From Sphingomonas sp. SORGH_AS_0950 (GTDB lineage: Bacteria > Pseudomonadota > Alphaproteobacteria > Sphingomonadales > Sphingomonadaceae), in assembly GCF_030818415.1 (NCBI RefSeq), contig NZ_JAUTAE010000001.1:2568001-2632000 (forward strand): a DNA stretch of 64,000 nucleotides. The letters are read 5' to 3'. The notes under the pieces are model-generated. The model did no database searches. It saw nothing but the letters and a program-made list of their open reading frames with translations, and was not told the origin of the DNA. The position numbers and the translations under genes are program-made. Numbering within the stretch: position 1 is the stretch's first letter; the number at the start of each line of letters is the position of its first letter. Of the stretch, positions 8,885 through 61,730 are shown one piece after another.

Positions 8885-9343
8885 CTAGACCGACTCCGAC
8901 AGGATCTTCGCAAAGCAGACGGCCTCGGGCCGCCCGGCATATTTCCCGAAATTTGGGATGCGCCAATAGCCGTTCTTCTCGTAGAATCGCACGGCCCTTT
9001 CATTGACCCGTCGCGTCTCCAGCCAAAGCTGGCGATATCCATCGGCCCGCGCGCGGGTTTCGAGACAGGCGAGGATGGCCGCGCCGACACCCTTGGTTCC
9101 GGGCAGGGCGAACATCCGCTTGAGCTCCGCCACGCCCTCCGCCAGCGGCCGATACGCGCCACAGCCGAGCGGCCTTCCTTCGTCGTCATACGCCAGCACG
9201 AACGACGCGCCGTTACCCTGTACGTCCAGGGGATCGAAGGATGCTCGGCCGCTGTCCCCGGTTATCGCCTCCAGCGCGTCGGAAAGCCGGTCGAGCAGCC
9301 GGGACGACGCCGGATCGGTGGGGTCGGCGGGTTCGATACGCAT
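8885..9343 (-). CDS. GNAT-family N-acetyltransferase
   Basis: About 152 residues from the ATG at 9341-9343. GNAT features: LGCGAYRPLAEGVAELKRMFALPGTKGVGAAIL, corresponding to strand 4 and the acetyl-CoA pyrophosphate loop (here G-x-K-G-V-G), then LWLETRRVNERAVRFYEKNGYWRIPNFGKYAG, the motif B and C-terminal strand of small-molecule acetyltransferases. The longer reading frame upstream is less convincing; this start has GGAG about 13 bases upstream. The substrate is unknown. Confidence 0.82.
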   Translation of the reverse strand: MRIEPADPTDPASSRLLDRLSDALEAITGDSGRASFDPLDVQGNGASFVLAYDDEGRPLGCGAYRPLAEGVAELKRMFALPGTKGVGAAILACLETRARADGYRQLWLETRRVNERAVRFYEKNGYWRIPNFGKYAGRPEAVCFAKILSESV

Positions 9344-9417
9344 TCGAGGAACGGCTCCTTCAAGGGCAAGGATCATCACGCCCACCCGTCTGGCGCCCGC
9401 TCGCGGGATTGTCGAGC

Positions 9418-9439
9418 GTGTATTGACACAATAATACAC
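9418..9439. promoter_or_regulatory. Short inverted repeat with an embedded TTGACA
   Basis: GTGTATT (9418-9424) and AATACAC (9433-9439) flank 8 bp. The TTGACA at 9423-9428 could be the -35 of the plus-strand membrane-protein gene. Lies between divergent genes; function inferred only. Confidence 0.35.
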
Positions 9440-9478
9440 ATGAGCGATCCTCTCCGCTTCTCAATGGGGAGAAGGTCC

Positions 9479-10507
9479 ATGTACAGCGAAAGCGACATCG
9501 ACGGTGCGGTGGCGGCGGGGGCGATTTCGTCCGATGCGGCGGCGGCGCTGCGACGGCACGTCGCGACGGTCCATGCCGCACCGGCCGTCGACGAGGAGCA
9601 TTTCCGGCTGCTCACCGGGTTCAACGACATCTTCGTGTCGATCGCGATCGCGCTGCTGCTCGCCGCGCTGGGGCAGATTGGTTTCAGCATCAGCCATGGG
9701 CTGGGCGGTGCCTTCGTCGCGGCGGCGGCGTGGATGCTGGCCTTCTATTTCACGGGCAAGCGGCGGATGGCCTTGCCCAGCATCCTGTTGCTGCTCGCCT
9801 TTGTCGGCGGTGTGGCGGGGGGGCTGATCGGGTTCATCGAGACCCTCTGGTCGAACATCAACGGCACGGCTGGCGCCTTGGCGATGTCCGGGGTGGGGCT
9901 GGTCTCCGCCGGAGCGGCATGGCTGCACTGGCGCCGGTTCATGGTGCCGATCACCGTGGCGGCGGGGGCGGCGGCGTTGGTCGCGGTCGTGATCGGGCTG
10001 TTGATGGCGGCGTTCCCCGATATCAAGCAGGGCATGTGGCCGATCCTGCTGGTCTGCGGGATCGGCGTGTTCGCGCTGGCGATGCGCTGGGACATGTCGG
10101 ACCCCAGGCGCGAGACGCGCCGGGCGGATGTCGCCTTCTGGCTGCACCTGGCCGCCGCGCCGATGATCGCGCATCCGATCTTCCAGATGCTGGGCGTGTT
10201 CGACGGAGAGATCGGCGCGGGCGTCGCGGTGATCGTGTTGGCGCTCTACCTGCTGTTCGCGGGGATCGCGCTGGCGGTCGACCGGCGGGCGCTGCTCGTC
10301 TCCAGCCTCGTCTATGTGCTCTACGCGCTCTATTCGCTGTTCCGCAGCGCCGGGGCGGTCGAACTGGGCGCGGCGTTCACCGCCTTCGTCATCGGCTCGG
10401 CGCTGCTGACGCTGTCCGCCTTCTGGCAGCCGATGCGGCGGATGGTCGTCGGCTGGCTGTCGCAGCCGATGCGCCTGCGCCTGCCGCCGGTGCACCAGCC
10501 CGCCTGA
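9479..10507 (+). CDS. Polytopic membrane protein (DUF2157-like layout)
   Basis: 342 residues from the ATG at 9479, chosen because GGAGAAGG lies just upstream; in-frame ATGs at 9440 and 9464 lack such a site. A soluble head of about 50 residues containing a predicted helical pair (ESDIDGAVAAGAISSDAAAALRRHV) is followed by about nine to ten membrane helices. A short soluble N-terminus before many helices is the DUF2157-type architecture, but this is a layout argument only. No transporter motif seen. Function unknown. Confidence 0.7.
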   Translation: MYSESDIDGAVAAGAISSDAAAALRRHVATVHAAPAVDEEHFRLLTGFNDIFVSIAIALLLAALGQIGFSISHGLGGAFVAAAAWMLAFYFTGKRRMALPSILLLLAFVGGVAGGLIGFIETLWSNINGTAGALAMSGVGLVSAGAAWLHWRRFMVPITVAAGAAALVAVVIGLLMAAFPDIKQGMWPILLVCGIGVFALAMRWDMSDPRRETRRADVAFWLHLAAAPMIAHPIFQMLGVFDGEIGAGVAVIVLALYLLFAGIALAVDRRALLVSSLVYVLYALYSLFRSAGAVELGAAFTAFVIGSALLTLSAFWQPMRRMVVGWLSQPMRLRLPPVHQPA

Positions 10508-45330: not shown

Positions 45331-45525
45331 CAACCCTCTCCCCTCTGCGAGGGGCGAGGGAAGGACAAGGCATCGCTGAATGTCGATCGGTCCTAGGCGA
45401 GCATGTCGGCCGTCTCGGCCTGTTTCGTAGCGAATCGTTCTACCCCACCATCGACACGGGTCGCGCGCGAATCCTGGACGTCGCCGTGCGCTTCCCGTCG
45501 TCGATCATTTGCCGGGGTGGTGATC
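45331..45525. other. Non-coding flank of the IS element
   Basis: Starts with CTCTCCCCTCTGCGAGGGGCGAGGG-type palindromic sequence, then about 150 bp without a convincing gene. On the minus strand a frame stays open to a stop near 45392 and could be the tail of the ORF cut by the IS (see 46829-47129), but no protein family is recognised. Confidence 0.4.
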
Positions 45526-45549
45526 TGGCCCCCGTTTCACCGGACGGAT

Positions 45550-46383
45550 TCAGGCGGTTGCAGAAACCAGTGCGCGATGTTCGCGCGGTGAACGCATTTT
45601 GAGCCCTGAATGGGGGTGGTTGTCGTTGTAGTCCTCGATCCATCCGGCAAGCGATGTCAACGCGGTGGGAGCATCAGGCAGCGGCGAGACGCGGACGTAA
45701 TCGCGCTTGAGGGTATGAACGAAGGCCTCCGAGATGCCGTTGGACTGCGGGCTGCGAACGGGCGTGAAGCAGGGTTTGAGGCCCAGCTGCCGGGCAAAGG
45801 TGCGTGTTTCGCGGGCAGTATAGGCCGAGCCGTTATCGGACAGCATCTCGACCGGCACGGGCGCGCGCATACCGCCGAAGCGGGTTTCCACGGCTTCCAG
45901 CATGATGTCGCGCACGTCCGAGCCGCTGATGCCCGCATTGGCGATCGCGCGCCAGGCGATGATCTCGCGGTCATGGGCGTCGATGATGAAGGCGCCGCGC
46001 ACGACCTCGCCGTTCCAGCAGGTGAACTCGAAGCCGTCCGAGCACCAGCGCAGGTTCGAGCGGATCGCCACCACGACGCCGTCATGGCCATAGTCGGCCC
46101 GCTCGGTGTAGCGCCGCGCCAGCAGCAGGCGGTCCGCTGCCATGATGCGGTAGACGCGCTTGTGATTGACCGGCGCCAGTCCTTCGGCGCGAAGCTGTCG
46201 ATTGAGGACCGCCGCGATGCGGCGGTAGCCGTAGGTGGGCCGCTGCGCGGCGATCTGGCGGATGCGGGGCAGCAGGTCCGCGTCGTCGGCCTTGGCGTAC
46301 GGCCCGCGCGTCCGGGTGCGGCCGGTCAGGCGGTCGTACACCGTCGAGCGCCCGACCCCGAGCGTCTTGGCGACCAGGCTCAC
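45550..46383 (-). CDS. IS3-family transposase OrfB (DDE integrase)
   Basis: 277 residues as an independent frame. An HTH_21-type N-terminus (ADLLPRIRQIAAQRPTYGYRRIAAVL) is followed by an RNase H-like integrase core with DDE residues in WCSDGFEF, MLSDNGSAY and NGISEAFVHTLKRDY (D-D-35-E). A complete transposase is expected from -1 frameshifting out of orfA, giving OrfAB; the open frame extends upstream without a stop to the slippery site. Appears intact. Confidence 0.92.
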   Translation of the reverse strand: MSLVAKTLGVGRSTVYDRLTGRTRTRGPYAKADDADLLPRIRQIAAQRPTYGYRRIAAVLNRQLRAEGLAPVNHKRVYRIMAADRLLLARRYTERADYGHDGVVVAIRSNLRWCSDGFEFTCWNGEVVRGAFIIDAHDREIIAWRAIANAGISGSDVRDIMLEAVETRFGGMRAPVPVEMLSDNGSAYTARETRTFARQLGLKPCFTPVRSPQSNGISEAFVHTLKRDYVRVSPLPDAPTALTSLAGWIEDYNDNHPHSGLKMRSPREHRALVSATA

Positions 46384-46757
46384 CGGATAGTCTCCGGCAA
46401 CGGCGAGTGCATGAGCAAGCTCGCTTTTTTTGGGCGTGAGCGCTCCAGCGCCTCCTTCAGGATCTCGACCTCCAGCGTCTTGCGGCCGAGCTGGCGCTCC
46501 AGTTCGCGGATGCGGGTCTCCATCTCGCGGACCTGGCGATTGCTGGTCACGTCGTTGTCGCCGGCGACCGCGACGCTCCCGCCCTCCAGCATCAGCCGCC
46601 GCCAGCGGTACAGCAGGTTCGGCGCCACGCCGTTGCGGCGTGCCACCACCGATATGCTCTCGCGACCATCGAGCGTCTCCTCGACGATCCTCAGCTTCTC
46701 AGGCGTGCTCCAGTGACGGCGACGACCGCCGTCGGTGATGATTTCGGACACGGACAT
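46380..46757 (-). CDS. IS3-family transposase OrfA (HTH protein)
   Basis: 125 residues from the ATG at 46757, MSVSEIITDGGRRRHWSTPEKL...; an upstream start at 46784 is possible. HTH_Tnp_1 motif KLRIVEETLDGRESISVVARRNGVAPNLLYRWRRL, then a leucine-zipper helix (VREMETRIRELERQLGRKTLEVEILKEAL). It binds the IS ends and dimerises. Overlaps orfB by four bases, with the slippery A7 run about 14 codons before its end. Confidence 0.9.
   Translation of the reverse strand: MSVSEIITDGGRRRHWSTPEKLRIVEETLDGRESISVVARRNGVAPNLLYRWRRLMLEGGSVAVAGDNDVTSNRQVREMETRIRELERQLGRKTLEVEILKEALERSRPKKASLLMHSPLPETIR
46425..46431 (-). promoter_or_regulatory. Programmed -1 frameshift slippery site in the IS
   Basis: Seven A residues (read on the minus strand) followed by G. 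Slipping back one base takes ribosomes from the orfA frame (CCA AAA AAA GCG) into the orfB frame (AAA AAA AGC GAG), giving the fused transposase typical of IS3 elements. Confidence 0.8.
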
Positions 46758-46828
46758 AAGCCTATGCTTAGGGGATAGCCCCAAGCCTCCTTCTTAGGCT
46801 TGAATCCGTCCGGTCGAAATGGGGGCCA

Positions 46829-47129
46829 GCTCAGGTGGCTTCTTCGCAAATCCGGTCGTGCGCCCGGCGTGGGTGGCGTCGCGTATCGTCGCGATGCGTG
46901 ATGGAGGCAGGGGGCTGCCGTTCGAGGCCGCTTCCTCCAAGACAATCGTCCCCAAGGGTCGAATATCGGCAAGCAAAGTCTCGGCGTCATCGGCATGGCG
47001 GTCGGGATCGAAAAAGACGGCGCGATGATTTCGCGCGATATGCCAAAGCATCGGGGCAAACACGTGTCGGCGGCTGTCTTTCGACAGCCGCCTCACATTT
47101 TCCACCAATGTTGGAAAGTGGTGCCCCAC
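46829..47129 (-). pseudogene. ORF of unknown function interrupted by the IS element
   Basis: An open frame from a GTG at 47129 (GHHFPTLVENVRRLSKD...VFFDPDRHADDAETLLADI...) reads into the right end of the IS, so the original 3' end is missing or displaced to 45.4-45.5 kb. Protein-like composition, but no family recognised. It is downstream of the AIPR gene on the same strand and may have been the last gene of that operon. The 167 bp between it and AIPR hold no gene I can support. Confidence 0.4.
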
Positions 47130-47296: not shown

Positions 47297-49354
47297 TCAA
47301 TCCGGAAGGATGCCCTCCTGCTGCGCCCTGTCGAGAAGTTGAACCAGTAGCGCGCTCTGCCGCTCCGTCGGGACTTTCGCCGGTATCTGTTCCGCGATCT
47401 TCAGGATGCCGATGTCCTTGGGAGTCAGTATTTTGCGCAGCCCCGCCTCGCGTAGGATCTTTGACCAGTACGCAGTGGGCGTCTCAAAGACCCTTTTCTG
47501 AGCCTCGATTCCGTTGTCGATCTTCTGGGTCTGCCGCGCGGTTTTCGCTTCCTCGCGGTTGTCGTCCGCGCCGATCAGCGCGGACCAGGACGCGTCGTCC
47601 AGCAGGTCGGCGATGTGCGACGACCGCTCGGAGAGACGGCCCCAGCAGCTTTCCTTTTTGCACCATTCCGAGATGTTGGAGATGCCGGCGGGCGGCTGCG
47701 TGATGTCGTCACTGACCGCTTTTGCGATGACTGCCAGCGCGCCGGACAGCGTTTCGTCCGCGGCCTGCGCATTCCAGATGCGCTGATAGTCGACCGACAG
47801 CTTGCGGTCGGCGGCGATCCTCCCCAGCATTGAAAGCGTGTAGGCCACGATGTTGGCCCTGTACCCGCCATTGTACCAAGGCTGCGCCGATACGAGTTTC
47901 TCAGTTGCCCGAAACAGGATACCCCGCGCAATCGCCCGCTTGTAGTAGAACTCGTTGAAGGTGTCGGCCGACTTGTCCCACTCCTTACCAATCCGCGCCG
48001 CGTAGCGGGCGAAGTTCTTCTGACTGCCGAGATTCACCCACCTTGGATGATCATCGAAGACGTTCTCGAACTTGGCGAGATCGGTCTTGGTGAACATCTG
48101 TGTCTTGGGGTATTCCGCCTTGAACCGCTTCTGCTCGGCTTGGCTGAGCTTGGACTGCGCATCGATATACTGCCCGCGCGCGCGCTCGTAGAACCACTTA
48201 GTTTCGCGCTGCGCGCCCTGCAGCGCGGGCGCCCAGATGCGGCGCGAGAACTCTGCCATGCGAACGTGGAAGGGATGGTTGGAAAAGAAGTCGGCCGCGT
48301 TCACCCGGTTCTGTGTGTTAGCGTATTCCGAGATGCGGGGAACGACCATCTCGCTCTGTTCGCTGTCGATCACTGACAGCTTCATCTGCACGAAGATGTC
48401 GGAGAGGTCGGCCTTGTCCTTGCGCTGCGTGTGAAACAGCGATGCCGTGGTCTGCCCGCCATTGACGATCTGCAGGTCCGTCAGCCGGCGGATTTCAAGA
48501 CCGCCGTCCGTCAGCACGGTTTCGACGTCCTGCGCTGTCGCGGTGATGCCGTTATTGTAGGCGAAGAACATCCGTGGCTCGTTTATAATCGTGGCGCGGA
48601 TGCCCTTGTTGACCTGCGCCCGGGCCTGCAGGAACGTGCGGACATTCTGCTCCAGCAGGCGAGCGCTATATTCATGATAGAGCTTCGCCAGAACTGTTGC
48701 CGGCATGACGATCAGATAGGACTGGTACGAGTCAGAGCCGAGATTGGCGGGCAGGCATTTGATGCCGTGGCCGAACATTTTCACGAAATCGATATCAAGC
48801 GCCTCCTTGTGCCCGCGCGAGCTGCGCTGGCGCTGGAAGCGTGCGATATCCCAGATATGATAGGTTGCCCGGATGCCGCTGACCTCGTTGTCCGGAAGCG
48901 CCTGAATCCGGTCGCTCAGGACCCGTTCCGAAACGAGGAAGAAATTGACCTGCTGGAGCAGCGGCCGCCGGTCCATAAGCTGGCGCACCAGCCCGTATTC
49001 AGGCGTTGTCACGTCCGGTTCAAGTGCCCCCTTGAGGCTTGCCTCGAAGAAGTTGACGACGCGCCTGAAAGCGGCGTCCATTTCCGTCTTGGTCAGGGTC
49101 TGAAGATCGCGCCGGCAGTCGAAGTCCGCGACGAAAATGTCTATCGTGCCCTCGTCGTTGAACCAGTACCCGTCCACCCGCATGCCGCGCGGGGCCTTGA
49201 AGGGGCAGTGCTCGAATCCCTCAATGAATCCAGTCTCGATCAGCTCGCCAGAGACGATCTCCATGAACGCCTCCAGCTGAAACGTGCTGTCGGCTTCGGC
49301 GAGCATCTCCTGCCGGAAGTCGTGGAAAAACTCTTCAGTCGTCTGTTCCGTCAT
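47297..49354 (-). CDS. AIPR-family protein (abortive phage infection-type)
   Basis: 685 residues. AIPR-domain hallmarks are clear: FFAYNNGITATAQDVE, LTDLQIVNGGQTTASLFH and ISEYANTQNRVNAADFFSNHPF (about residues 265-375), with an N-terminal domain containing WFNDEGTIDIFVADF. The family is named after abortive-infection genes and recurs in restriction-like and MORC/Z1 defence operons; its biochemical activity is not settled. Its ATG overlaps the stop of the DUF4420-like gene (ATGA). Last intact gene of the operon. Lower GC than the core genes. Confidence 0.9.
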   Translation of the reverse strand: MTEQTTEEFFHDFRQEMLAEADSTFQLEAFMEIVSGELIETGFIEGFEHCPFKAPRGMRVDGYWFNDEGTIDIFVADFDCRRDLQTLTKTEMDAAFRRVVNFFEASLKGALEPDVTTPEYGLVRQLMDRRPLLQQVNFFLVSERVLSDRIQALPDNEVSGIRATYHIWDIARFQRQRSSRGHKEALDIDFVKMFGHGIKCLPANLGSDSYQSYLIVMPATVLAKLYHEYSARLLEQNVRTFLQARAQVNKGIRATIINEPRMFFAYNNGITATAQDVETVLTDGGLEIRRLTDLQIVNGGQTTASLFHTQRKDKADLSDIFVQMKLSVIDSEQSEMVVPRISEYANTQNRVNAADFFSNHPFHVRMAEFSRRIWAPALQGAQRETKWFYERARGQYIDAQSKLSQAEQKRFKAEYPKTQMFTKTDLAKFENVFDDHPRWVNLGSQKNFARYAARIGKEWDKSADTFNEFYYKRAIARGILFRATEKLVSAQPWYNGGYRANIVAYTLSMLGRIAADRKLSVDYQRIWNAQAADETLSGALAVIAKAVSDDITQPPAGISNISEWCKKESCWGRLSERSSHIADLLDDASWSALIGADDNREEAKTARQTQKIDNGIEAQKRVFETPTAYWSKILREAGLRKILTPKDIGILKIAEQIPAKVPTERQSALLVQLLDRAQQEGILPD

Positions 49355-50313
49355 GCCCCCTCCAGAGCCGCGCGCTCATCGCACTCATAATCGGCGATGG
49401 CTTCAAGCTTTATCTCGTAGCCGACATTCATGATTCCGTCGGGCAGTCCCGAACGGGTCATCCTCGGAAAGCCCTCGCGCACGTGATAGGTGGTCGTTTT
49501 ACTGACGACGAAGGCCGGCTCGTCGTATTCTGGTAGCGGCGCGTAGCCGTGCGTTACCAGCCTGCGCTCGAATGTGTCGGCTGCGTCCGGATCAGTGATC
49601 AGACCCTGCACCCGGGCGACCATCCCGTTGAGCGACAGGAGTTGAGGTCCGCCGGACCCGCTGCTGAGCCGATAGATCCTCAGGAGCAGCCGGTCGTTCA
49701 GGGACTCCAGCTGGTCCTCCGACGATATCCTGACGCTGTTCCGCTCCGTGCCCGAAAGGGATTTGACCTCAATAGCCGTGTTGCCAAATATGAAATCCTG
49801 ATGTGATCGCTCGGGGCCGAGCCAAGCCGCCACGGCCACGGCCGCGCCCTGCCGGCCGATCAGTTCGCTCAAGAACTGAAGCTCCGCGAACAGCCCGCGC
49901 ACCTCCTCAGGAGACAGGTGCGAGCCCCGGCCCGACAAGAAGTGCTTCCACCGGCGAATGTGGGTCAGGGCTATGCCAAGCGCACTCGCGGAATCTGGCG
50001 CGTCCGCGAGCGAAGCGGACAGCGTACGGCAGAGCCCGGCGAACAGGTCGCGGTCAACATGCCGCTCGAGGGTCAGCACAAGCCGCTGCAGCCCTAGACC
50101 GGCCGACCGCAGATCGACGCCGATGCCTTTCACAGTCGCGACGTTTCGCCGGTACTGCGAGGTGTGGTCGCCCAGCAGATCGATCAGGAAGAGGCATTCG
50201 CCGTCGGTATTGCGGCCCCAGTTGCAGGGCACGGCGCGCTGGCCGCCCACCTGGCGGACATTAAAGTCGGTATCCGGTACGGCGATGTCGTCCCACGGTG
50301 TCGACTCAGGCAT
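49351..50313 (-). CDS. PD-(D/E)XK motif protein (DUF4420-like)
   Basis: 320 residues from the ATG at 50313, chosen for the AGGAT upstream and the eight-base overlap with the Z1 gene. The nuclease-like core is RSHQDFIFGNTAIEVKSLSG: Asp, then E-V-K, the PD-(D/E)XK arrangement, at about residues 170-190. Preceded by LSPEEVRGLFAELQFLSELI, typical of DUF4420 proteins found with Z1 and AIPR genes. Probably the DNA-cleaving subunit of the system; this is inference from the motif. Confidence 0.85.
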   Translation of the reverse strand: MPESTPWDDIAVPDTDFNVRQVGGQRAVPCNWGRNTDGECLFLIDLLGDHTSQYRRNVATVKGIGVDLRSAGLGLQRLVLTLERHVDRDLFAGLCRTLSASLADAPDSASALGIALTHIRRWKHFLSGRGSHLSPEEVRGLFAELQFLSELIGRQGAAVAVAAWLGPERSHQDFIFGNTAIEVKSLSGTERNSVRISSEDQLESLNDRLLLRIYRLSSGSGGPQLLSLNGMVARVQGLITDPDAADTFERRLVTHGYAPLPEYDEPAFVVSKTTTYHVREGFPRMTRSGLPDGIMNVGYEIKLEAIADYECDERAALEGA

Positions 50314-52948
50314 CGTAATCCTCATCCTCGTCCGGATCGTCTGGCGCGCCCTGCATCGCGTCGAGCCAGACCTTGTTGGCGACAACCTCGATTTCCTTAT
50401 CGTAGTGGCCGGGCGGGAAGCTGATGCCGAAAGCCGCGACTGGGCCCGTCACGGCCGGATTGTCGCGCGGCTGCAGGCTGTGGATCATCAGAAGTGGCTT
50501 CTTCCGGACCTCGCGGTAGTGATAGTCCGATACCGCGCCCGCTTTTTCGCCGTTCAGCGCCAAGTCTTCGGCCACCTGCTGCTGTTCAGGAAATAGACCA
50601 AGCTTCTCGTCACCCCGCGATGCTACGCGATCCTTGTTCAGGCGCCACGCCGTGCCCGCAACGCCGGCCGCGATGCGGACCTGTCGGTTGAGCGTCCAGT
50701 CCTCCTCGATGCCCCCGGGAGAGATTAACAGCACGTCGCCGACAGGATGGCGGTCGGTGAGTGTGCGCAGATAGGCTATGGTGTCGGACTTGCGGTCATT
50801 GAACTGGCTGTGCGCCTGAAAAGCAGTCAGGAAGTCTTCGATCTGCTCGACCCGGACATCCCTAAAGATCAGGCCCTTTCCGGTATCGTCGGCCTCGTGC
50901 CCGCCAAAGCCCTCCTGCCAGTAACGCTGGATCAAGCCGAAGTTTTCAGTATTCACGTCCGGGTCAGTGGAGACGATATAGCTTTCGAGCAGCCGGCCGC
51001 TGAAGTTTTGGCGGAACATGACCTTCTCGCCCGTCCGCATCTTGTTGGATGCCGTAATGAGTAGGGTGTCCGGATGGGACATAACGTAGAGACCGAACTG
51101 CTTCGGGCTCATCCCGTCGCGGCGCATCCGCTTGACCTGCTGGGTCAGCTCCTCGGCCGCCTGCGCGATATGAGCGTACCAGTTGATCGAGTCTCGCGAG
51201 AGGTGGACGCGGCACAGATCTTCATAGCCGGGCCGGTATCCGAACCAGCGGCCCATCTGCATCAGCGTATCGTACATCTTCGTGTTCCGATACATGTAGC
51301 TGACAGTCAGGCCTTCGATGGTCAGACCGCGCGACAGGCTTAGACCACCGACCGCGATTGCAGTCAGGCCGACGCCCTCCTTCTCGTACCTCGTATAGTC
51401 CAGAACCTCGTCGCTTTTGCTGTTGATGACGAACAGGTTCAGGTGATCGAATACGCTGTTGAGAGCAGCCTTGACCTCGTCCCACGCATGCCCGGTGTCT
51501 GAATACTCCGCGGACCATGCGGCTTTCAGCCGCTGCATGTACCCGTTCTGTGAGGATGAGAATTCCGGCATGGCGTAGTTCGCGCGGACCGCATCCCTGA
51601 TCTTGCTGATGCGCAGGCTCAGGAAGTCCCGCACCGTCTTCTGGACAGAGACGAAGCGGGACACGTTGACCATCATGGAACAGTGCTTGCCAGCTTGGCC
51701 GCGCAGGTTGCGGATGGCACGGGCCACAATGAACTCGTCGAGCGCGCGATACAGGCTGGGCGGCAGTTCGGGGACGTTGTCGTCCCGCTTGTGCGAGAAC
51801 GGAATGTAGTCCTCGCAGTCTTGGATCTCCTCAAGAATGACCCGGCTGCTATCGTCGTTCAGGAAAACTTTTTCCGCGCCAAAATAGGTCGTCGGCGCAT
51901 CGAGGCAATAGATGAAGTCGCGTGGGAACAATTCCTCCCGCACATCATCGTCATATGCTTCGGGATTTATAAAGATGTTGGCGAACGGCGTTGCCGTATA
52001 GCCCACATAGCACGATTTTGCGAACAGGCTAAGAATCCGGCGCAGCATCGCGTTCGTCTGCGTCGGGTTCACATCCTCCTTGTTCGTGTTGATCGATGCA
52101 TTGTCGGCCTCGTCGTCGATCATGAGCATCGGGACATCAGAGATCTGACCTGTACCCTGTGCGTTCATCTCCTTCAGCCACTTGTGTAGTGCCTTCAAGG
52201 TGGTGACATTTTTCTTGATGACCAGAATGACGGGCTTGCTGAAGTCATTCAGTTTCCAGCCACTCTTGCCGGCCGTGTCCTTGTTGAAGTCCTCGCGGAT
52301 GTTCGTCAGTGTCGCCGGGTTCGGATAGCCGGGTTCCAGCCCGACCCCGATAGATTGGCGGTCGTCCGGATCGCTCGACCGGCCGATGAAGGCCTCGTCG
52401 ATCCGCTCTTGCGTTTGCTTGCGCAGGTTGTTGTGGATGCCAGCCACGACGATGATGAACTTGTAGCCGGCGTCGGCTGCCTTCGCGATCAGGCCGGTGT
52501 AGTTCGCGGTCTTGCCTGACTGAACATGGCCGATCACGAGGCCGCGCCTGTCCCAGGTGCCCTCGCTGGTCGGGTCCTGTAGGTGCCCTAAAACGCGGGT
52601 CGTTACGTCGCTCAGCGACTGGACGAGGCGGGGCGCCCAGCCTTCCCCCCTCAGGAAGGCTTCATACGCTTGGGCGTAGGTCCAAGTGATGTTGTCCCGC
52701 TTCGCGACCCACTGGTCGTCATGCCCGGCGTCGATGTCGACCAGCGAAACGCCCGCGCCCATCCGAGTGTCGATCCTGATCAGCACCTGATCGATGATAC
52801 CGTCAAGGGGCCCGTTCCAGCCGCTCATCGGCCCGATCACGCCAGCGGCGGTCTGAACCTCTTCCCTCGTCGGAACGGGCTCCTTGTTCCCGAGTACGTT
52901 TACGAGCGCGGTGACGACGCTGTTTTCGATATCAGCCGGATTTCCCAT
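50306..52948 (-). CDS. Z1-domain ATPase/helicase-like protein
   Basis: 880 residues, an SF2-type motor of the Z1 class. Walker A is GLVIGHVQSGKTANYTGLI (about residues 145-163), Walker B VPMLMIDDEADNAS, motif III YVGYTATPFANIF, and the Z1-specific GGLSLSRGLTIEGL...QMGRWFGYRPGYEDLCRV supplies the arginine finger region. Z1 proteins accompany MORC/MutL-like ATPases in restriction-like operons and are thought to translocate or remodel DNA. Its ATG directly follows the MORC stop. Confidence 0.92.
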   Translation of the reverse strand: MGNPADIENSVVTALVNVLGNKEPVPTREEVQTAAGVIGPMSGWNGPLDGIIDQVLIRIDTRMGAGVSLVDIDAGHDDQWVAKRDNITWTYAQAYEAFLRGEGWAPRLVQSLSDVTTRVLGHLQDPTSEGTWDRRGLVIGHVQSGKTANYTGLIAKAADAGYKFIIVVAGIHNNLRKQTQERIDEAFIGRSSDPDDRQSIGVGLEPGYPNPATLTNIREDFNKDTAGKSGWKLNDFSKPVILVIKKNVTTLKALHKWLKEMNAQGTGQISDVPMLMIDDEADNASINTNKEDVNPTQTNAMLRRILSLFAKSCYVGYTATPFANIFINPEAYDDDVREELFPRDFIYCLDAPTTYFGAEKVFLNDDSSRVILEEIQDCEDYIPFSHKRDDNVPELPPSLYRALDEFIVARAIRNLRGQAGKHCSMMVNVSRFVSVQKTVRDFLSLRISKIRDAVRANYAMPEFSSSQNGYMQRLKAAWSAEYSDTGHAWDEVKAALNSVFDHLNLFVINSKSDEVLDYTRYEKEGVGLTAIAVGGLSLSRGLTIEGLTVSYMYRNTKMYDTLMQMGRWFGYRPGYEDLCRVHLSRDSINWYAHIAQAAEELTQQVKRMRRDGMSPKQFGLYVMSHPDTLLITASNKMRTGEKVMFRQNFSGRLLESYIVSTDPDVNTENFGLIQRYWQEGFGGHEADDTGKGLIFRDVRVEQIEDFLTAFQAHSQFNDRKSDTIAYLRTLTDRHPVGDVLLISPGGIEEDWTLNRQVRIAAGVAGTAWRLNKDRVASRGDEKLGLFPEQQQVAEDLALNGEKAGAVSDYHYREVRKKPLLMIHSLQPRDNPAVTGPVAAFGISFPPGHYDKEIEVVANKVWLDAMQGAPDDPDEDEDYDA

Positions 52949-54424
52949 TCAGAAAGCCCCTCCCACATAGTCCTCAACAATTTTCTGCCGGCCCTCGAAC
53001 AGACGCGTCGAACGGACCAATTCGAGGAACTGCTGAGCCGTGCCCCCGCTTTCTCCGTACAGGAGCGTCCTGAGCACGTGCAGGCTCTTCAGCGTATCCG
53101 CCTCGTCCGTGTCCAACTGCCTAATTTCGCGCGGCGCGGTGGAGTAGTCGGAATAGATCATCTCCACCGGCAGGGCTGCTGCCGCAGCTTTCAGAAGAAG
53201 CTCAAGAGACGCACCACCATCCGCCGGCAGCATGCCGGCGAGCGAAGTCACGAGGGGGTGCTGGAGGTTCAGCGCGTACCGGATACCACCGTGGTCGGCA
53301 TAGCGTTCCCAGAGCGGGGCCGCCGCGTCCTGAAACAGCTTCTGGCCCCGGCCGCGATGGACACTCACGCTGCGGGCGGTGATTTTGTTGATGATCTGCC
53401 GCAGCCGCTCCCGCACAGCATGCGGCGGTCGTGCGCGCGACTTCTTGATGTCAATGGTCCACGCCTCGTCCAAACCGTTCGGGAAGTCGATCTGCACCCG
53501 GGCCAACTTGGTCGCCTCCCCCTTCGGAACGAGCCTGAACCAGTCGCCCCATGCCATCAGACGTCCGCTGCGGTAGATGTAGGCGCCTTGGTTCGATATG
53601 AAGTCGCTGCGATCTTGATAGTAGTCGTACTCGGTCGGCGACAGCCGGCTGTGATGCGGTAGAATGTACGGCTGCATCGTGATCGCCGCATCATTGACCC
53701 AGACCGTCTCGGTTGGCAAAACCTGCGTCGCCGCATTCTTTCTGCAGAACGGATCGAATGGTGCCACTGGATGACCGTTGACGCTGATGGCGAGCTTCTT
53801 CCGCCCCTTGATCTCGCCTGATAGGAAGCGGTGGAACACGAGCGCTAGGTGCCGTTCGACCGTAACAAGCTTGTCGCTGACGATCTCGTCACGCTTCTGG
53901 CCGGTTTCATCCTCGGACAGCCGGTCAAGATCGCGCCAGATGACGAGCGTGCCAGTCTCGCCGAGCAGATCGGCAAAAGGCAGGCCCGCGATCTCGTCCC
54001 GATCGAGGATCGAGATGGACCAATCATCGTCCGCTTCGACCTTGTTCAGGTCCCACTCGGCGCCGCACCTCTGTCCATCCCGCGCGCTGATCAGGGTCAG
54101 CCGCCGGCATTGCGAGAAGGAGGCGGTCTTTAGGCCTAGGCCGAAGCGCCCAAGGTCACTGGAGGCGCGCTTTGCATTGGGATGCGTCGCACCGTGGCGC
54201 ATCGCGGCGATGAGCCGCTCTTCCGTCATTCCGTGACCGTTATCCGCAATCACCAGCGCGGGCTCCTTCCGGGCCACGTCGCAGACTATGCGGATGTCCG
54301 TCGCACCCGCGGAGATGCTGTTGTCGATCAGATCGGCGACGGCCGTTTCCAGCGAGTAGCCTAGGTCGCGCAGGGAAGCTGAAAGGCTGGCGGCGCTGGG
54401 CGGAAGGGGATACGACCTTGCCAT
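52949..54424 (-). CDS. MORC/MutL-like GHKL ATPase
   Basis: 491 residues. The Bergerat ATP site is intact: ETAVADLIDNSISAGA (catalytic Glu and Mg-binding Asn), LVIADNGHGM (DxGxG), GRFGLGLKTASFSQC (ATP lid) and GTLVIWRDLD. An S5-like transducer domain follows (about 200-340) with a Lys in DIKKSRARPP. No MutL endonuclease motif is seen. Prokaryotic MORC-like proteins are found in restriction-like operons and probably act as ATP-gated DNA clamps or signal switches. Its start overlaps the vsr stop (TGATG). Confidence 0.9.
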   Translation of the reverse strand: MARSYPLPPSAASLSASLRDLGYSLETAVADLIDNSISAGATDIRIVCDVARKEPALVIADNGHGMTEERLIAAMRHGATHPNAKRASSDLGRFGLGLKTASFSQCRRLTLISARDGQRCGAEWDLNKVEADDDWSISILDRDEIAGLPFADLLGETGTLVIWRDLDRLSEDETGQKRDEIVSDKLVTVERHLALVFHRFLSGEIKGRKKLAISVNGHPVAPFDPFCRKNAATQVLPTETVWVNDAAITMQPYILPHHSRLSPTEYDYYQDRSDFISNQGAYIYRSGRLMAWGDWFRLVPKGEATKLARVQIDFPNGLDEAWTIDIKKSRARPPHAVRERLRQIINKITARSVSVHRGRGQKLFQDAAAPLWERYADHGGIRYALNLQHPLVTSLAGMLPADGGASLELLLKAAAAALPVEMIYSDYSTAPREIRQLDTDEADTLKSLHVLRTLLYGESGGTAQQFLELVRSTRLFEGRQKIVEDYVGGAF

Positions 54425-54840
54425 CAGGCCTCCCTCAACGAGTCTCTAATACGAGCGACGACGGCATCGGCATCGCGTTCAAGTTCACATTCCCAGACAG
54501 TCAGCACGGTCCAGCCCTCCTCACGCAGCCGAATCTCGTTCCGGCTGTCGCGCGCGACGGTGCCGGCGAACTTCTCCTGCCAAAATTCGGGCCTGGTGGA
54601 GGGCGTGGTACAGTTCCGGCAGCCTTCATGCCTGTGCCAGAAACAGCCATGCACGAAGATCGCCGTGCGATAGCGCGGAAGCACGATATCCGGCTTGCCG
54701 GCAAGGTCCTTTACATGAATGCGGAAGCGCAAGCCGGCGCGGTGCAGAAGGGAGCGCAGGCGAACCTCCGGGCCGGTGTTCCGGCCCCGTATTCGGGACA
54801 TGTTCCAGCTGCGTCGTTCTGCGCTGATCGTATCGACCAT
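54424..54840 (-). CDS. vsr: Very short patch repair endonuclease
   Basis: About 138 residues from the ATG at 54840 (a GTG one codon upstream is possible). Vsr pattern: SRIRGRNTGPEVRLRSLLHRAGLRFRIH, the metal-binding Asp in GKPDIVLP, IFVHGCFWHRHEGC with the structural zinc Cys/His residues, and FWQEKF. It nicks next to T in T:G mismatches left by deamination of 5-methylcytosine. Pairs with the cytosine methyltransferase whose gene ends on the same bases. Confidence 0.93.
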   Translation of the reverse strand: MVDTISAERRSWNMSRIRGRNTGPEVRLRSLLHRAGLRFRIHVKDLAGKPDIVLPRYRTAIFVHGCFWHRHEGCRNCTTPSTRPEFWQEKFAGTVARDSRNEIRLREEGWTVLTVWECELERDADAVVARIRDSLREA

Positions 54841-56525
54841 CACGCCTCACCCGGGATGGCGTCGAGAACCTCGCTGACAATCTCCGCGATCTGCCGGGCC
54901 AACTGCGGGGGAACAGCGTTTCCGACCTGATGATACTGCGCGGTTCGCGGCCCAGCGAAGAAGTAGTTGTCTGGGAAGGTCTGCAGTCGCGCAGCCTCCC
55001 TGACTGTCAGGCTGCGGCACTGTGCCGGATCGTAGTGGATGAAGTAGTGGCCGTCCTTCGAGATATGGGAGGTGATGGTGGTCGCGCACCGGTCGGCCAA
55101 CTGAACACGGAACCGGTCCGCGAACATCGCGCGATTCCTGCCCGGCCCGACGTTCTGGTGATCCGGCAGAAGCGACGCCGGGAAGTCGCAGAGCTTCGGG
55201 CTGCGGCCCGTGTTTTCCGCGAACACGGCGGCAAATACATAACGCCGAAGGTCCGAGGCCATGTGGCCCCGGGCCTCGTGCCCGGTAAGCGTCGACAGAC
55301 GTGCGTCGTACAGTTTGCGCAAAACCTCGTGACTCGGTGTTCTTAGAGTGTAGCGGGTGGACGAACTGAGACGCGGGGCTTGCAGGGCAATCAGGCTGTC
55401 CAGTTCGATGCCCTTTGCGACGGCGCCGGCATAGGTAGCGCCGTTCATCTGCTGTCTTAGGTTCATTCCCGAGACCTTGCGGATTTCCGAGATCCAGTCC
55501 GCGAAGCTGTCTAGCCCCCGGGAGAGGGTGCTACGCACGGCGGGGAGGCCACCAATGGTTTCCCGCACGCTGGGCGCGCGCATTTTGCGCAGCGTACCCG
55601 GCTTCACATCCAGATCGGACCGGATGCCGACGATAAACATCCGGTGACGGGCTTGGGGTATCCCATGTTCCTCGGCTCGGACGATGAACAGGCGCGGATC
55701 AACTTCCCCCTCCGCCATCTCTTCCTCGGAAAGGGAAAAGAGACGGTAGGCGAGGTCCTGTTTCGCGCCAGGTATTGCGTTCGCCGGCCGCGAAAGGTCT
55801 TGGACGATGCGCGTGATGGCCGATTTGCCCTCGATGGTTGCCGACAGGAGCCCCTTGACGTTCTCCATGACGAAGATCGGCGGCTCGTGGTCTGCGATGA
55901 TCCGGAGGTACTCCAGATACAGTGTATGCCGCTCATCGCTCTCGAAGTTGGGCCGCCCCATCATGCGCGCGCGCCCGACCAGCGAATACGCTTGGCAGGG
56001 GGGGCCTCCCACGAGAGCCCATTTCCGCGTGCGCCCCAGCCGCTTCCGAATGATGCCCCTGACCTGATCGTGGGACTCGCTACCAAGTGAGATCCTCAGG
56101 GCGCTGTGCTCCGCCTCTATCCATTCCTTTGGGTAGCGCGACGCGAGTTCGACCGCCGTCAGGTCGCCGGCGAGGAAATCGTAGTAATCATCCGGAGCCT
56201 CTCCGTCAGGGAAGGACCGCAGGAAGTGCCGCATCAGGAGCGTTTTGTGAGAGAACTCGTCCCGCTCGATCGCTACGGCGCTTCTGAACCGGTTGCGTTC
56301 CTTTTCGTCAACAAGGGACGAGAAGCCCTCACCGAGGCCGCCGGGGCCGGCGAACAGGTCGATGACCGGATACGGCAACGAAAGATGGCCGGCATGTGCT
56401 GCCGGCGACGCCTCTGGCGTTGGCCTAGTGGCGGCAACTGTTCCCTTCAGGCGCAACAATTTTCTTTCAGCCATTCGCGTTTTGGCTAGCGAAGCGACTC
56501 GCCTGCGCCAGCTCTCCCTTCTCAT
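54840..56525 (-). CDS. DNA (cytosine-5) methyltransferase
   Basis: 561 residues with all key C5-MTase motifs: I VIDLFAGPGGLGEGF, IV GGPPCQAYSLVGRARM with the nucleophilic Cys, VI FVMENVKGLL, VIII QARHRMFIVG, IX RSLTVREAARLQTFPDNYF and X QYHQVGNAVPPQLA. The target-recognition region (about 330-470) is large, so the site cannot be predicted. The start overlaps the stop of the Phd-like gene (ATGA). Supplies self-protection for the downstream restriction-like genes, or is itself a partner of them. Confidence 0.94.
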   Translation of the reverse strand: MRRESWRRRVASLAKTRMAERKLLRLKGTVAATRPTPEASPAAHAGHLSLPYPVIDLFAGPGGLGEGFSSLVDEKERNRFRSAVAIERDEFSHKTLLMRHFLRSFPDGEAPDDYYDFLAGDLTAVELASRYPKEWIEAEHSALRISLGSESHDQVRGIIRKRLGRTRKWALVGGPPCQAYSLVGRARMMGRPNFESDERHTLYLEYLRIIADHEPPIFVMENVKGLLSATIEGKSAITRIVQDLSRPANAIPGAKQDLAYRLFSLSEEEMAEGEVDPRLFIVRAEEHGIPQARHRMFIVGIRSDLDVKPGTLRKMRAPSVRETIGGLPAVRSTLSRGLDSFADWISEIRKVSGMNLRQQMNGATYAGAVAKGIELDSLIALQAPRLSSSTRYTLRTPSHEVLRKLYDARLSTLTGHEARGHMASDLRRYVFAAVFAENTGRSPKLCDFPASLLPDHQNVGPGRNRAMFADRFRVQLADRCATTITSHISKDGHYFIHYDPAQCRSLTVREAARLQTFPDNYFFAGPRTAQYHQVGNAVPPQLARQIAEIVSEVLDAIPGEA

Positions 56526-56686
56526 TCCGTGCCTTGACGGGACAGCCTGCGGTACTCTTCAATGCTCATGACCACGGCTACCGGCCTACCGTGTTTCTGC
56601 ACCTGCACGGGGGCGGCCTGAGCGGCGTCAAGCAGGACGCCGAAGCTGTTCTTCGCCTCCTTCGCCGACATCGTCTTCATGCTCAT
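56522..56686 (-). CDS. Phd/YefM-family antitoxin-like protein, first gene of the defence operon
   Basis: 54 residues, MSMKTMSAKEAKNSFGVLLD...VVMSIEEYRRLSRQGTE. The Phd/YefM N-terminal fold is plain: SAKEAKNSFGVLLDAAQAAPVQVQKHGRPVAVVMSIEEY. It ends soon after the DNA-binding fold, leaving almost no toxin-neutralising tail. No toxin gene of the Doc or RelE type follows; the stop overlaps the methyltransferase start. GGGGGA precedes the ATG. May act as the operon's autoregulator. Confidence 0.85.
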   Translation of the reverse strand: MSMKTMSAKEAKNSFGVLLDAAQAAPVQVQKHGRPVAVVMSIEEYRRLSRQGTE

Positions 56687-56697: not shown

Positions 56698-56729
56698 GTG
56701 GCTATTTTAGCTACACCGCCAGTTGGCGC
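56698..56729 (-). promoter_or_regulatory. Promoter and palindromes before the Phd-like gene
   Basis: On the minus strand a TTGCGC / TAAAAT pair with 16-bp spacing. Over the -10 lies GTGGCTA-TTT-TAGCTAC (56698-56714, one mismatch between arms), and beside it CGCCA-GT-TGGCG (56717-56728). Suitable operators for a Phd-type repressor; inferred. Confidence 0.45.
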
Positions 56730-56838: not shown

Positions 56839-58272
56839 TCAGCCGATCGAAAAGCGATGTTCGGGGATTACATCAAGCAAATAAAACGGCCGTCGCGAGT
56901 CCGTTGAAGCGCCATGATGATCTCCCAGTGCGCGATCCCCTCGTTCTACAAGGAAATCGCGTGACGCCTTGGTGGCTTTCCAAGGTCGGGTGGCGGTATC
57001 CCGGCAGTCCCCTTCATAACCGAACAGCGTTTCTCGATAGAATACCAGTAGGTCTTCGAACCGGCTCACGGACCCGCGAACCTGTCGTTCACCGTCATAC
57101 GGGCCCAACGGCGTCGCGAGTACGGTGCCGGCGATCAGGGCGTCGACCATTGCCGGCAGTTGCTGCTCTGCCTGGATGAAGCGGCGGATGGTAACGGCCA
57201 AGGCCGCGAGCAGCGGCAGTCCATACCACTCGGTTGCGAACACCCTGGCCCCAGCGCCGCGCGTCTGCGGCGTCGCGGTTCGCGCCATCAGCGCATCGTC
57301 TTCGCGAAGACGTCCCGCGACGTGCTGCATTAGGCGGGGCAGATCGAGGCTTTCGCCGCTGTGTTCCGGCATATCGGGATGCTTGCGAATTCGCTTCGCA
57401 ATCATCCGGATGAGCGGATCGGCGTGCTTCGTCAGCGGCAGGTTTACGCCGCTCGGCACGCATGCGCTTTCGCCAACGCGCCAGTCGCCCGAGCCAAAGT
57501 ACAGGTCGAGCGCGGTCTCTATCGCCGTGCGACGCGCCCGCATCTGGTTGAGCGCCCGTTCTGGTGCCATCGACTGGCTGGACCCAGGCACCAAATAACC
57601 GAACGACGGGGCCTTCATCAGCCGCGCGCCGACCATTTGCACGTCATGCGCACACCAGATCAACGCCTGTACGACGAGCAGATTGCGCAACTTCGGCATG
57701 GAGGCAGGATCGTTGCTTGCCAGAATCCGCAAGCGGCGGATCACCGAACCAAATCGCCCACCCACCAAGGCTTTGTAGAGTTGCTGGTCGTGATCACGCA
57801 GAGTCGCCAATGCCTGAACATGAAGGTTGAACGCCTTTTCCGGCGCAACCTTCCCTGCCCAGCCGCTGACGATGACGTCGGTATTGTTGGTTGCGCCATT
57901 GCGCATTATCAGCCCGCGCAGGAATGCCTGAAGCGCTGGGCGATCGGTCGGGATCAGATCGAGCGGGGGCAGTTCTTCCTTGGCGTCGAGGATCGCTGCG
58001 GGCAGCGACCGGATGTCGTTGAGGGTGGGCGCGAACAGACGTCGGCCGTAATCTGCCTCTGCGATGCCTTCGGCATAGATCCGGCCATGCATGTCGCTGA
58101 CCAGCTTGGTGAGGTCGCCATCACTGGCGATCGCACCGGCGAGCAGCGTATCGACGTCAGTCTTGCGTCCCGCGGTGTCGAGAAATTGACGATAGCTTCC
58201 TTCGTAGCGTTGCTGGCCGAAGGCCGCCTGCTGCTTGCGCCGCTCCTTGCGGCTGACCCGGACTTGGGTCAC
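56839..58272 (-). CDS. Unknown protein, about 477 residues (third gene of a three-gene operon)
   Basis: Not recognised. Starts at a GTG overlapping the previous stop (GTGA). A basic N-terminus (VSRKERRKQQAAFGQQRYEGSYRQF) is followed by a mostly helical body with segments such as FNLHVQALATLRDHDQQLYKAL, LLVVQALIWCAHDVQMVGARLM and YGLPLLAALAVTIRRFIQAEQQL. No Walker, nuclease or membrane motif seen. It could be an accessory protein of the mobilisable element or a separate defence component. Confidence 0.65.
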   Translation of the reverse strand: MTQVRVSRKERRKQQAAFGQQRYEGSYRQFLDTAGRKTDVDTLLAGAIASDGDLTKLVSDMHGRIYAEGIAEADYGRRLFAPTLNDIRSLPAAILDAKEELPPLDLIPTDRPALQAFLRGLIMRNGATNNTDVIVSGWAGKVAPEKAFNLHVQALATLRDHDQQLYKALVGGRFGSVIRRLRILASNDPASMPKLRNLLVVQALIWCAHDVQMVGARLMKAPSFGYLVPGSSQSMAPERALNQMRARRTAIETALDLYFGSGDWRVGESACVPSGVNLPLTKHADPLIRMIAKRIRKHPDMPEHSGESLDLPRLMQHVAGRLREDDALMARTATPQTRGAGARVFATEWYGLPLLAALAVTIRRFIQAEQQLPAMVDALIAGTVLATPLGPYDGERQVRGSVSRFEDLLVFYRETLFGYEGDCRDTATRPWKATKASRDFLVERGDRALGDHHGASTDSRRPFYLLDVIPEHRFSIG

Positions 58273-58484
58273 AGCTTGCCGACCATATCGTCGATCTGCG
58301 CCAGAAGCGCCGCGGCGCTTTCCGCCAGTTGCCTGCACAGTCCCTCGGCGTGACGATAGGCGTCATGGCCGGTCCGCTTTGCGGCGATCTCCGCGTCGAA
58401 CGTGGCCATGGCGTCCTTGAACTGCCGTTCGAGGTGCAGGTGGGCAGCATATGCCTCGTCTATCGATTGATGTTCGTCATTCAT
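58269..58484 (-). CDS. Small helical protein, 71 residues (second gene)
   Basis: MNDEHQSIDEAYAAHLHLERQF...AQIDDMVGKL: acidic, entirely helical in appearance, with heptad-like spacing suggesting a coiled coil. Overlaps the genes on both sides (8 and 4 bases), so it is made in step with them and is probably a subunit or adaptor. No homolog recognised. Confidence 0.6.
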   Translation of the reverse strand: MNDEHQSIDEAYAAHLHLERQFKDAMATFDAEIAAKRTGHDAYRHAEGLCRQLAESAAALLAQIDDMVGKL

Positions 58485-59136
58485 CGTCTTCCTCCAGATG
58501 GGGCGGGAGCGCAGGCTCGCGCCAGAAAGTGGGATTGCCGCCGCGCGCGCGGAGCCATTCGAAAGCAGCGCCACGGGTTGCGAGATCGGGGGCGGGTTCG
58601 CCGAGCAGGCCGACCAGCGCATCGATGAGCGCGGCCTGCCCGATGGTGATCGGCTTGCGCCGCCACGACGCGCGCGGGTCGAGTGGCCCGGTCTCGATAA
58701 AGCGCCGCACTTCCTGTTCGTAGAGCGCGGCGCGCCTGCGCCATTGCAGGATCACGCCCCACTGTTGGCACCAGGTCAGGCGTGCGGGATCGCTGAAGAT
58801 CCAGCGGACGATATCGCCGAACGTTGGCCCGGCGCTGGCCGCCGTGGCGGACTGCATCCAGCGCGCCATCCGTTCCGGATGCGCCATCAGCCCGAGCAAG
58901 GCGGTGTCGTCGCTGCCGTCGATCCCGACCAGCACGAGGGCCGAGCCGAGGGCGTACTTCCGGGCATCGGCCGATCCCGGCCCGCCGCGCCGCTTGTCCG
59001 CTGCGCGATATTGCCGCCGCAGTTCGGCGGCGCTGATGGCCGCGATCGCGACCTCGCCCGCAATGCGATCTTCGCTCGCGGCAAGGTTGGTAGCCAGATC
59101 GCGGAGGCGATCAGCAGTGGTTTGGGCGGTGGTCAT
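58477..59136 (-). CDS. Unknown protein, about 219 residues (first gene)
   Basis: From the ATG at 59136; an ATG at 59142 is equally possible, and the frame stays open to a TTG at 59169. Helical N-terminus (TTADRLRDLATNLAASEDRIAGEVAIAAISAAELRRQYRAADKRRGG), then GSALVLVGIDGSDDTALLGL and RWIFSDPARLTWCQQWGVILQWRRRAALYEQEVRRFIET. No family recognised. Divergent from the relaxase gene. Confidence 0.6.
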   Translation of the reverse strand: MTTAQTTADRLRDLATNLAASEDRIAGEVAIAAISAAELRRQYRAADKRRGGPGSADARKYALGSALVLVGIDGSDDTALLGLMAHPERMARWMQSATAASAGPTFGDIVRWIFSDPARLTWCQQWGVILQWRRRAALYEQEVRRFIETGPLDPRASWRRKPITIGQAALIDALVGLLGEPAPDLATRGAAFEWLRARGGNPTFWREPALPPHLEEDDE

Positions 59137-59269
59137 GCCCATCGCGGTACCCACGACCGTCGCCGCCAAGCGTCAACCTAGTGGCACAAAGTTGATCGAC
59201 GCCGCGCGCATCTTTCCGGGGCTGAGTTGACGAGACACCAGCAGGAGCAAGGCAGAAGGTGACAGGTTA

Positions 59270-59333
59270 GAGGGGGTGGTGCGCGATAAAGTGTTGTTCG
59301 GCCAAAGCCGAACAACGACCCGCCCACCCCCTC
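59270..59333. promoter_or_regulatory. Nested perfect palindrome upstream of the relaxase gene (oriT candidate)
   Basis: Outer arms GAGGGGGTGG (59270-59279) and CCACCCCCTC (59324-59333) and inner arms GTTGTTCGGC (59293-59302) and GCCGAACAAC (59307-59316) around CAAA, all perfect. It lies between the divergent relaxase and three-gene operon, where an oriT or a shared operator would be expected. Confidence 0.5.
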
Positions 59334-59352
59334 CTGATTGAACGATGGAAGT

Positions 59353-61401
59353 GTGGCAGTGGCGATCGACTATGCGGAGCTGAAGGCAGGTAACAGGGAA
59401 GCCGCCCAAGCGCTTGCCGATGCCCGCAGTGCTCGACATCTGACCAGTCGCCGCAAGCGTGAAGAAGTGAGTGCCGAGCGTGCAGACGAAGGTGCCAGGC
59501 GGCGGCGCAAGGCGATGAGCGACCGCGAGGCTGAGGCGTTTCTCAGCCGCCGCCTGCACATCAAAATGCCCGAAGGTGACCGCCCGCGCACGAGATTACG
59601 CACGCCGCGCAAACTGTACACCCGCATGGTGGAGCAGATGCTAAAGGGGACGGTCGGTGTGACCAACGCGCGCGGGCCCGATGGCCGTCACTCGATCCAC
59701 TTCGCCTTCACCGCACGAGGATTCAGCTCGAAGAATGGTCGTCGCTGGCGTGCTGGCGAAGCCGCGCGCGCCGTGCTGTATAGCGTGCGCGAGGAAGCGC
59801 TGGAGGGTGGCGAACTCGGCTGGTGGTCGAATGTCGCTGACGATCGCAACGAACTCGTCGCCCATTACCGCGCGTCGGAGGCGCTCGAGGCACACGACCG
59901 GGCCAATGCGAACGTCTATCTCGTCGAGGTCATCGCGCTTCCCGCCGAACTGACCGCCGAGCAACGGCGGCAGGCGGTCAAGCGCATCTGCCGCCAGCTG
60001 GACAGGCTGGGGCTGGCCTATACCGTCGGCATTCACCTGCCCGACGCAGCAGGCGATCAACGCAATTTCCACCTGCACCTGGTCTATTCGATGCGGCCCT
60101 GTCAGCGGGTGGCACCCTATGAATGGCAGTTCGCCGTCACCAAGCGGACCGAGATCAACACCCCGGCCGGGATCATGCACCGTCGTTGTGCCGTGGTGGT
60201 CGCGATCAACGAGACGCTGCGGGAAGCCGGCATCGACAAGCGCTACACGCCGCTGTCCAATCGCGACCGCGGTATGGCGCAGCCGATCCGGGGCAAGGTC
60301 GGACAGCAAGCAACCTGGGCGGCGCGGCGTTTGGCGGCCGCTGACGACCGTCATGCCTCGCTTCTGATCCTGCAGGATCAGCTCCGGCAGGTCCGCACCG
60401 GCTTGGTCGACGCCGCCAAATGGCTCGGCAGCGCCGGGGCGATCGTGCGGCGCCGTTGCTTGGGCATGGCCATCAAGCTATCGGATGCTGAGGCGATCAT
60501 GCCATCGCCCGCCGCGTTGAAAGCGAAGATGCGGGATCATCTCGAACGACAAATGTCCGTCGCCGATCAGGCGACCCGCGCTGCTCGAGCCAAACTCACG
60601 CCTGCGCGATCGGCAGTCAGCCAGAGATTGACGTCGATGCGCCATGATCTCGGCGCAACCGCGGGCGCATCCGAGTTGGCAAATCGCCGTGAGGTCCTGG
60701 GAACTCATCTTGCGGGTATGCGGTCGCACACCGTGCAGACGGTCGCCGACATCGCCACATCGGTTGCAGCGATCCCGCAGCACCCCATCGCTATCGAGCA
60801 CGATACCGGGCGAACGGTCGGCGGCGACCGGACTTCGAGCACGGATGGCGAAACCTTCGTGACCCCGACGCCCCCGCCAAGTCCAATCGTCGGCGAGATG
60901 CAGGCGGCGCGACATCAAGCCGCTCTGCGCCGTCAGCGCGAAATCTATGATGAGGCGCTGGCGATGCTGCGGAGAAAACGCGGTCGCGTGTGGCTGGACG
61001 CCGACGGTCGGTACGACATCGACGATGCTGACCTGCCGACCCGCGAACGGGGCGTGTGGCAGCGCCTCAAATCCACTGTGAAAGCGCAAAGCGATCTGGC
61101 GGACCTCCATACAGTGCAACAGCAGTCGGTTTTGACGGGGGTACTCGATGTAGATGCGGTTGAACGAGTAACGGGCGCATCTCCGCTGCCGTCAGCGACC
61201 GCCCCGCTCGATCCCACCATTCCGGAAGCCGAACCAGCTTCGCCGCCTGATGACCTGTTGCCAGTCTCCACGGCGACCAAGCAGCGTGGGGTGTTCGCGC
61301 AGGCGGAGAGCGTCGACCCCGAGCAGGCACGCGCTCGACCGAAGGGAGGCGATAAGGGCCAAACACCGGCGATCCCCCAAAAGTCCGAACACGAACGGTG
61401 A
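59353..61401 (+). CDS. MobA/MobL-like relaxase
   Basis: About 682 residues from a GTG at 59353; a TTG at 59338 is also possible. The His motif NFHLHLVYSMRP (about residue 240) and downstream RVAPYEWQFAVTKRTEIN, MHRRCAVVVAINETLREAGI and YTPLSNRDRGM follow the MobA/MobL relaxase plan (paired His, then a region corresponding to WADLVNRHLEEAGI). A long helical C-terminus follows. Relaxases nick oriT and lead the strand in conjugation. Divergence from known relaxases is considerable, so the call is moderate. No type IV secretion genes in the window. Confidence 0.7.
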   Translation: MAVAIDYAELKAGNREAAQALADARSARHLTSRRKREEVSAERADEGARRRRKAMSDREAEAFLSRRLHIKMPEGDRPRTRLRTPRKLYTRMVEQMLKGTVGVTNARGPDGRHSIHFAFTARGFSSKNGRRWRAGEAARAVLYSVREEALEGGELGWWSNVADDRNELVAHYRASEALEAHDRANANVYLVEVIALPAELTAEQRRQAVKRICRQLDRLGLAYTVGIHLPDAAGDQRNFHLHLVYSMRPCQRVAPYEWQFAVTKRTEINTPAGIMHRRCAVVVAINETLREAGIDKRYTPLSNRDRGMAQPIRGKVGQQATWAARRLAAADDRHASLLILQDQLRQVRTGLVDAAKWLGSAGAIVRRRCLGMAIKLSDAEAIMPSPAALKAKMRDHLERQMSVADQATRAARAKLTPARSAVSQRLTSMRHDLGATAGASELANRREVLGTHLAGMRSHTVQTVADIATSVAAIPQHPIAIEHDTGRTVGGDRTSSTDGETFVTPTPPPSPIVGEMQAARHQAALRRQREIYDEALAMLRRKRGRVWLDADGRYDIDDADLPTRERGVWQRLKSTVKAQSDLADLHTVQQQSVLTGVLDVDAVERVTGASPLPSATAPLDPTIPEAEPASPPDDLLPVSTATKQRGVFAQAESVDPEQARARPKGGDKGQTPAIPQKSEHER

Positions 61402-61730
61402 TTCTGGCGGACCATTTTGTTCGCGATCAGCGAGGCGGTACGATCGTCGCTTGAGATTGTTAACCTGCCCAGGGTAGAGTCGAAGCGTTCGCCAGCAGGC
61501 GGACCGAGGCGTGGAAACCTCGTCGGAAAGTCGCCGTATGCCCGGCCCGAATTTCATTCGGCCGGGGAGCGGGCGTGTATGTCCAAGGCTCTTCGGGGCC
61601 TAAAGACGCTCGCGCCTGTCTTTCCGCAGGTTTCCAATCTCCGGCTCACGGGCCGGCACCGCCTCGTTTTTACAGGGCGGTGCCGCCGGCTGGGAACGCC
61701 GATCGGTACCACGCGGACGGGGGTTCGGGC
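61402..61730 (+). other. Intergenic stretch between relaxase and protease genes
   Basis: No convincing gene. A strong hairpin CGGCACCGCC (61654-61663) / GGCGGTGCCG (61676-61685) with a T-rich loop lies 46 bp before the protease start and might act in the leader or as a weak terminator. Confidence 0.4.

Follow-up and report, generated by a model that had tools for sequence, protein, structure and literature searches.

A seven-gene MORC operon on a Sphingomonas island resembles a predicted DNA-marking and DNA-cutting immune system and carries a likely Phd-like autorepressor

The 64,000-nucleotide stretch of DNA analysed here (the window; Sphingomonas sp. SORGH_AS_0950, contig NZ_JAUTAE010000001.1, positions 2,568,001 to 2,632,000) carries seven tightly packed genes on its minus strand, an arrangement that had been noticed when the letters were read without database searches and that our analysis confirms (Table 1). 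From upstream to downstream they encode a Phd-like protein, a C5-cytosine DNA methyltransferase, the mismatch endonuclease Vsr, a MORC-type GHKL ATPase, a Z1 helicase, a DUF4420 nuclease and an AIPR protein. Judged by its sequence, the operon looks like a combined DNA-marking and DNA-cutting immune system that has already been predicted in print, and we infer a role in anti-phage defence from the protein families, the island context and the relatives of the operon.

Table 1. Positions of the operon, its proposed operator and the surrounding island features (window coordinates unless a locus is named)
Feature	Position	Strand	Evidence or remark
Seven-gene operon	47297..56686	-	
Proposed operator TAGCTAAAATAGCCA	56699..56713	-	tandem TRGCYA hexamers, 9-bp spacing
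Phd/YefM-like orphan antitoxin, 54 amino acids (aa)	56522..56686	-	PF02604 2.9e-13
C5-cytosine DNA methyltransferase, 561 aa	54840..56525	-	PF00145 9.9e-44; TIGR00675 6e-39
Vsr T:G mismatch endonuclease, 139 aa	54424..54843	-	TIGR00632 9.3e-41
MORC-GHKL gene	52949..54424	-	MORC motif and folds
Z1 helicase (motor) gene	50306..52948	-	PF10593 9.7e-76
DUF4420 PD-(D/E)XK nuclease, 320 aa	49351..50313	-	PF14390 5.4e-59
AIPR protein, 685 aa	47297..49354	-	PF10592 5.6e-101; PF22879 1.7e-39
Mobilisable island, 33.9 kb	45005 to window-relative 78918 (own contig C1)		
Insertion sequence between tRNA-Gln and operon	45520-46834		three further genome copies, 99-100% identity
499-aa open reading frame (ORF) on island backbone	56839-58338		also in G416
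MobA/MobL relaxase	59338-61401		
Large serine recombinase	L141:15332-16972		frame ends within tRNA-Leu
Same island backbone in G416, with sensor histidine kinases	L158 (G416 C104) 1-9656		94%

Marking, motor and cutting genes

The best match of the methylase in the PDB is M.HaeIII, and a variability comparison places its variable target region at about residues 306-470, with limits set by eye from the motifs. The Vsr assignment was borne out: the protein scores 138.9 bits against a curated TIGR00632 cut-off of 97.85, has the conserved residues and matches structure 1cw0 with an E-value of 2.5e-31. In the MORC protein, the segment GAYIYRSGRLM fits 10 of the 11 motif positions, the last being M (by eye; a strict pattern gave no match); G280, Y282, Y284, R285, R288 and L289 are invariant in 47 sequences, and the best fold matches are MORC3, MORC2 and MORC4. 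The Z1 protein has the motor motifs GHVQSGKT, DEAD and DTLMQMGRWFG (the last at 560), while E144, D173 and E182xK184 of the DUF4420 nuclease are invariant in 75 of 75 sequences. A structure model, a fold comparison and conservation describe AIPR residues 1-183 as PD-(D/E)XK-like without the lysine; in the model, residues 206-350 are possibly ParB/Srx-like, and residues 501-685 form a helical C-terminus whose variation follows that of the methylase target region.

The sequence-only reading, which our analysis partly supports, called for a search for the ordered gene set in other genomes. Among 80 loci that have the four-gene core (L113 and L124 were counted separately), methylase and Vsr are both kept in 58, and the Phd-like gene was not found in 70. 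Neither methylase nor Vsr was detected in five of these loci (L014, L018, L040, L067 and L082, several with cut contigs), nor in L113.

Exchange of blocks and a possible target reader

Operons of this type show signs of having been put together from blocks that can be swapped. Exchange has affected the methylase cassette and the motor-nuclease block, such that cores A and B occur with cassettes M1 and M2 in all 2 × 2 combinations. In quick trees, the MORC N-terminus and the AIPR protein from the 10 M2 loci group in a single clade even though the core is swapped. The AIPR C-terminus would, in the mechanism that we propose, act as a target reader matched to the methylase.

Several observations weigh against this proposal. 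AIPR proteins do not converge between core types that share M1 (AM1-BM1 67.3% versus AM1-BM2 67.7%), and the BM1 loci pair M1 with a MORC N-terminus and an AIPR closer to the M2 group; because of these two results, the reader role is only partly supported. Moreover, once the set is thinned, the MORC N-terminus does as well as the AIPR C-terminus (0.52 and 0.51), every segment, the motor included, has some partial correlation with the methylase, and the groups compared in the quick trees were named after the identities were known. Natural chimeras that combine one motor-nuclease block with two methylase types are well suited to a test that separates a self/non-self reader from a subunit that moves and cuts.

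A Phd-like regulator and its proposed operator

Ten of the 80 loci, and L124 as well, encode a relative of the Phd-like protein immediately before the methylase. Their N-terminal part is conserved and their tail variable by inspection, as would be expected if DNA binding had been kept and toxin neutralisation lost. From the sequence, the Phd-like protein is likely an autorepressor of the operon, and we read the tandem hexamer site as its operator. This site stops 12 bp short of the Phd-like start and covers a -10-like hexamer, TAAAAT (56709-56704); the promoter scan called no consensus promoter there. The pattern TRGCYA-NNN-TRGCYA is common to upstream regions of Phd loci that are otherwise dissimilar by eye. 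A site with 0-1 mismatch, starting at -27 to -50 relative to the start codon, is present in 10 of 12 Phd loci (the window, L008, L009, L010, L024, L036, L037, L045, L046 and L124), as compared with one of 56 Phd-less loci (L081, just within the methylase ORF); since the motif was derived from these very loci, this comparison is descriptive. Across the 80 loci (1.5 Mb) the pattern turns up 37 times at 0-1 mismatch, and the three exact sites equal in number the Phd loci among the 80 that have an exact site.

Other counts speak against the operator. L075 has no site and L039 only sites with three mismatches; when up to two mismatches are allowed, 11 of the 56 Phd-less loci have one; and exact copies of the motif lie at three places in the whole genome, against five for a control pattern.

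One could instead regard the Phd-like gene as the relic of a toxin-antitoxin addiction module with no part in regulating the operon, as its membership in an antitoxin family, the failure to find it in most loci and the frameshifted look of the L039 copy would allow. We consider this unlikely: no toxin gene is recognisable next to it within the window (downstream lies the methylase, upstream the 499-aa ORF without a family match), it is the N-terminal part that is conserved, the gene keeps its place before the methylase and accompanies M1 on cores A and B alike, and the operator-like motif is retained at the promoter in most Phd loci. The autorepressor reading suggests that an antitoxin-family protein was recruited as controller of a restriction-like operon.

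Three loci differ at this position. In L039 (6269-6464) the Phd-like gene, which tblastn matches as two pieces lying in different frames, is apparently frameshifted and the operator-like site degraded. A small helix-turn-helix-like ORF in L057 (6349-6546), named by eye, overlaps the methylase start by 4 bp and may be an alternative regulator, and a deaminase-like ORF in L007 (6015-6464), likewise named by eye, directly precedes an M1 methylase.

Island setting and relation to described systems

The operon is cargo on a mobilisable island. We compared 61 genomes of the genus, 60 of which gave some match; most of the matches listed break off no more than a few bases from the 3' end of tRNA-Gln at 45004. 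The closely related G440 matches again from tRNA-Leu (window-relative 78919) on, the two tRNA genes being 2.08 kb apart there and 33.9 kb apart here. No attachment-site repeat was found at the island. G416 shares 56829-66490 at 94%, up to an edge 143 bp before the Phd-like start, beyond which sensor histidine kinases occupy the place of the operon, so that the operon looks like exchangeable cargo; among the 61 genomes only G416 has a long match to 58400-61500. The 368-aa ORF of the insertion sequence has no Pfam match, and at the thresholds applied the 499-aa ORF has none in Pfam, NCBIfam, PADLOC or PHROGs.

DISARM was considered since DrmMII is the best PADLOC match of the methylase. The DISARM partners are DrmA, DrmB and DrmC, and none is among the matches listed for the six large operon proteins (25 of 56 in the case of the methylase) or the 499-aa ORF.

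Kinship with Mza, the set that Gao reportedly described in 2020 as mzaABCDE, does not amount to identity, which we regard as very improbable. MzaB-E profiles do match four operon genes (E 6.5e-35 to 1.9e-160), in the same order as in Mza, but all score at 29-36% of the NCBIfam equivalog cut-offs (329/1050, 121/420, 536/1500, 309/850). The sigma-like MzaA has four matches in the genome, none over its cut-off and none at the operon (the nearest about 90 kb away), where methylase and Vsr stand in its place. Mza has a core of comparable kind with a sigma factor, according to PMC9523054.

The fit to one described system concerns gene content alone. For CglI and NgoAVII (PMC4267653, PMC5737866) the abstract lists just three genes, hence neither MORC nor AIPR nor Vsr. 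Their nuclease is a PLD-B3 protein; the operon proteins gave no Pfam match of that kind and have DUF4420 in its place. In the paraMORC-like Response_reg_2/HEF_HK loci, C5 methylases and Vsr are neighbours of a GHKL ATPase (Bellieny-Rabelo et al., 2021; PMC8011034). The published MORC system, by the available portions of its description, shares MORC (GhXhhpXXRhl), the superfamily 2 (SF2) helicase (DThhQXuRhFG), the E-D-ExK nuclease, the cytosine methylase and Vsr, with AIPR named in a figure legend; a Phd-like regulator is not mentioned there. The accessible text on the 'Type II' system does not give the kind of regulator, an operator or block exchange, nor does it name Vsr for Type II, its Type I being linked with DNA repair endonucleases; the Type II regulator may be the same as the Phd-like one. 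A kinship of prokaryotic MORCs with the MORC chromatin proteins of eukaryotes has been proposed (PMC2292703), and in the literature as far as accessible we found no experiment on the widespread bacterial operons that contain them. The reader proposal ties these operons to a testable division of labour between a subunit that tells self from non-self and one that only moves and cuts. The six-gene system is already known by prediction, and the idea of an undescribed set falls to that extent; the additions are the Phd branch with its proposed operator and the exchange of three blocks, both of which appear to be new, and the hypothesis of an AIPR reader.
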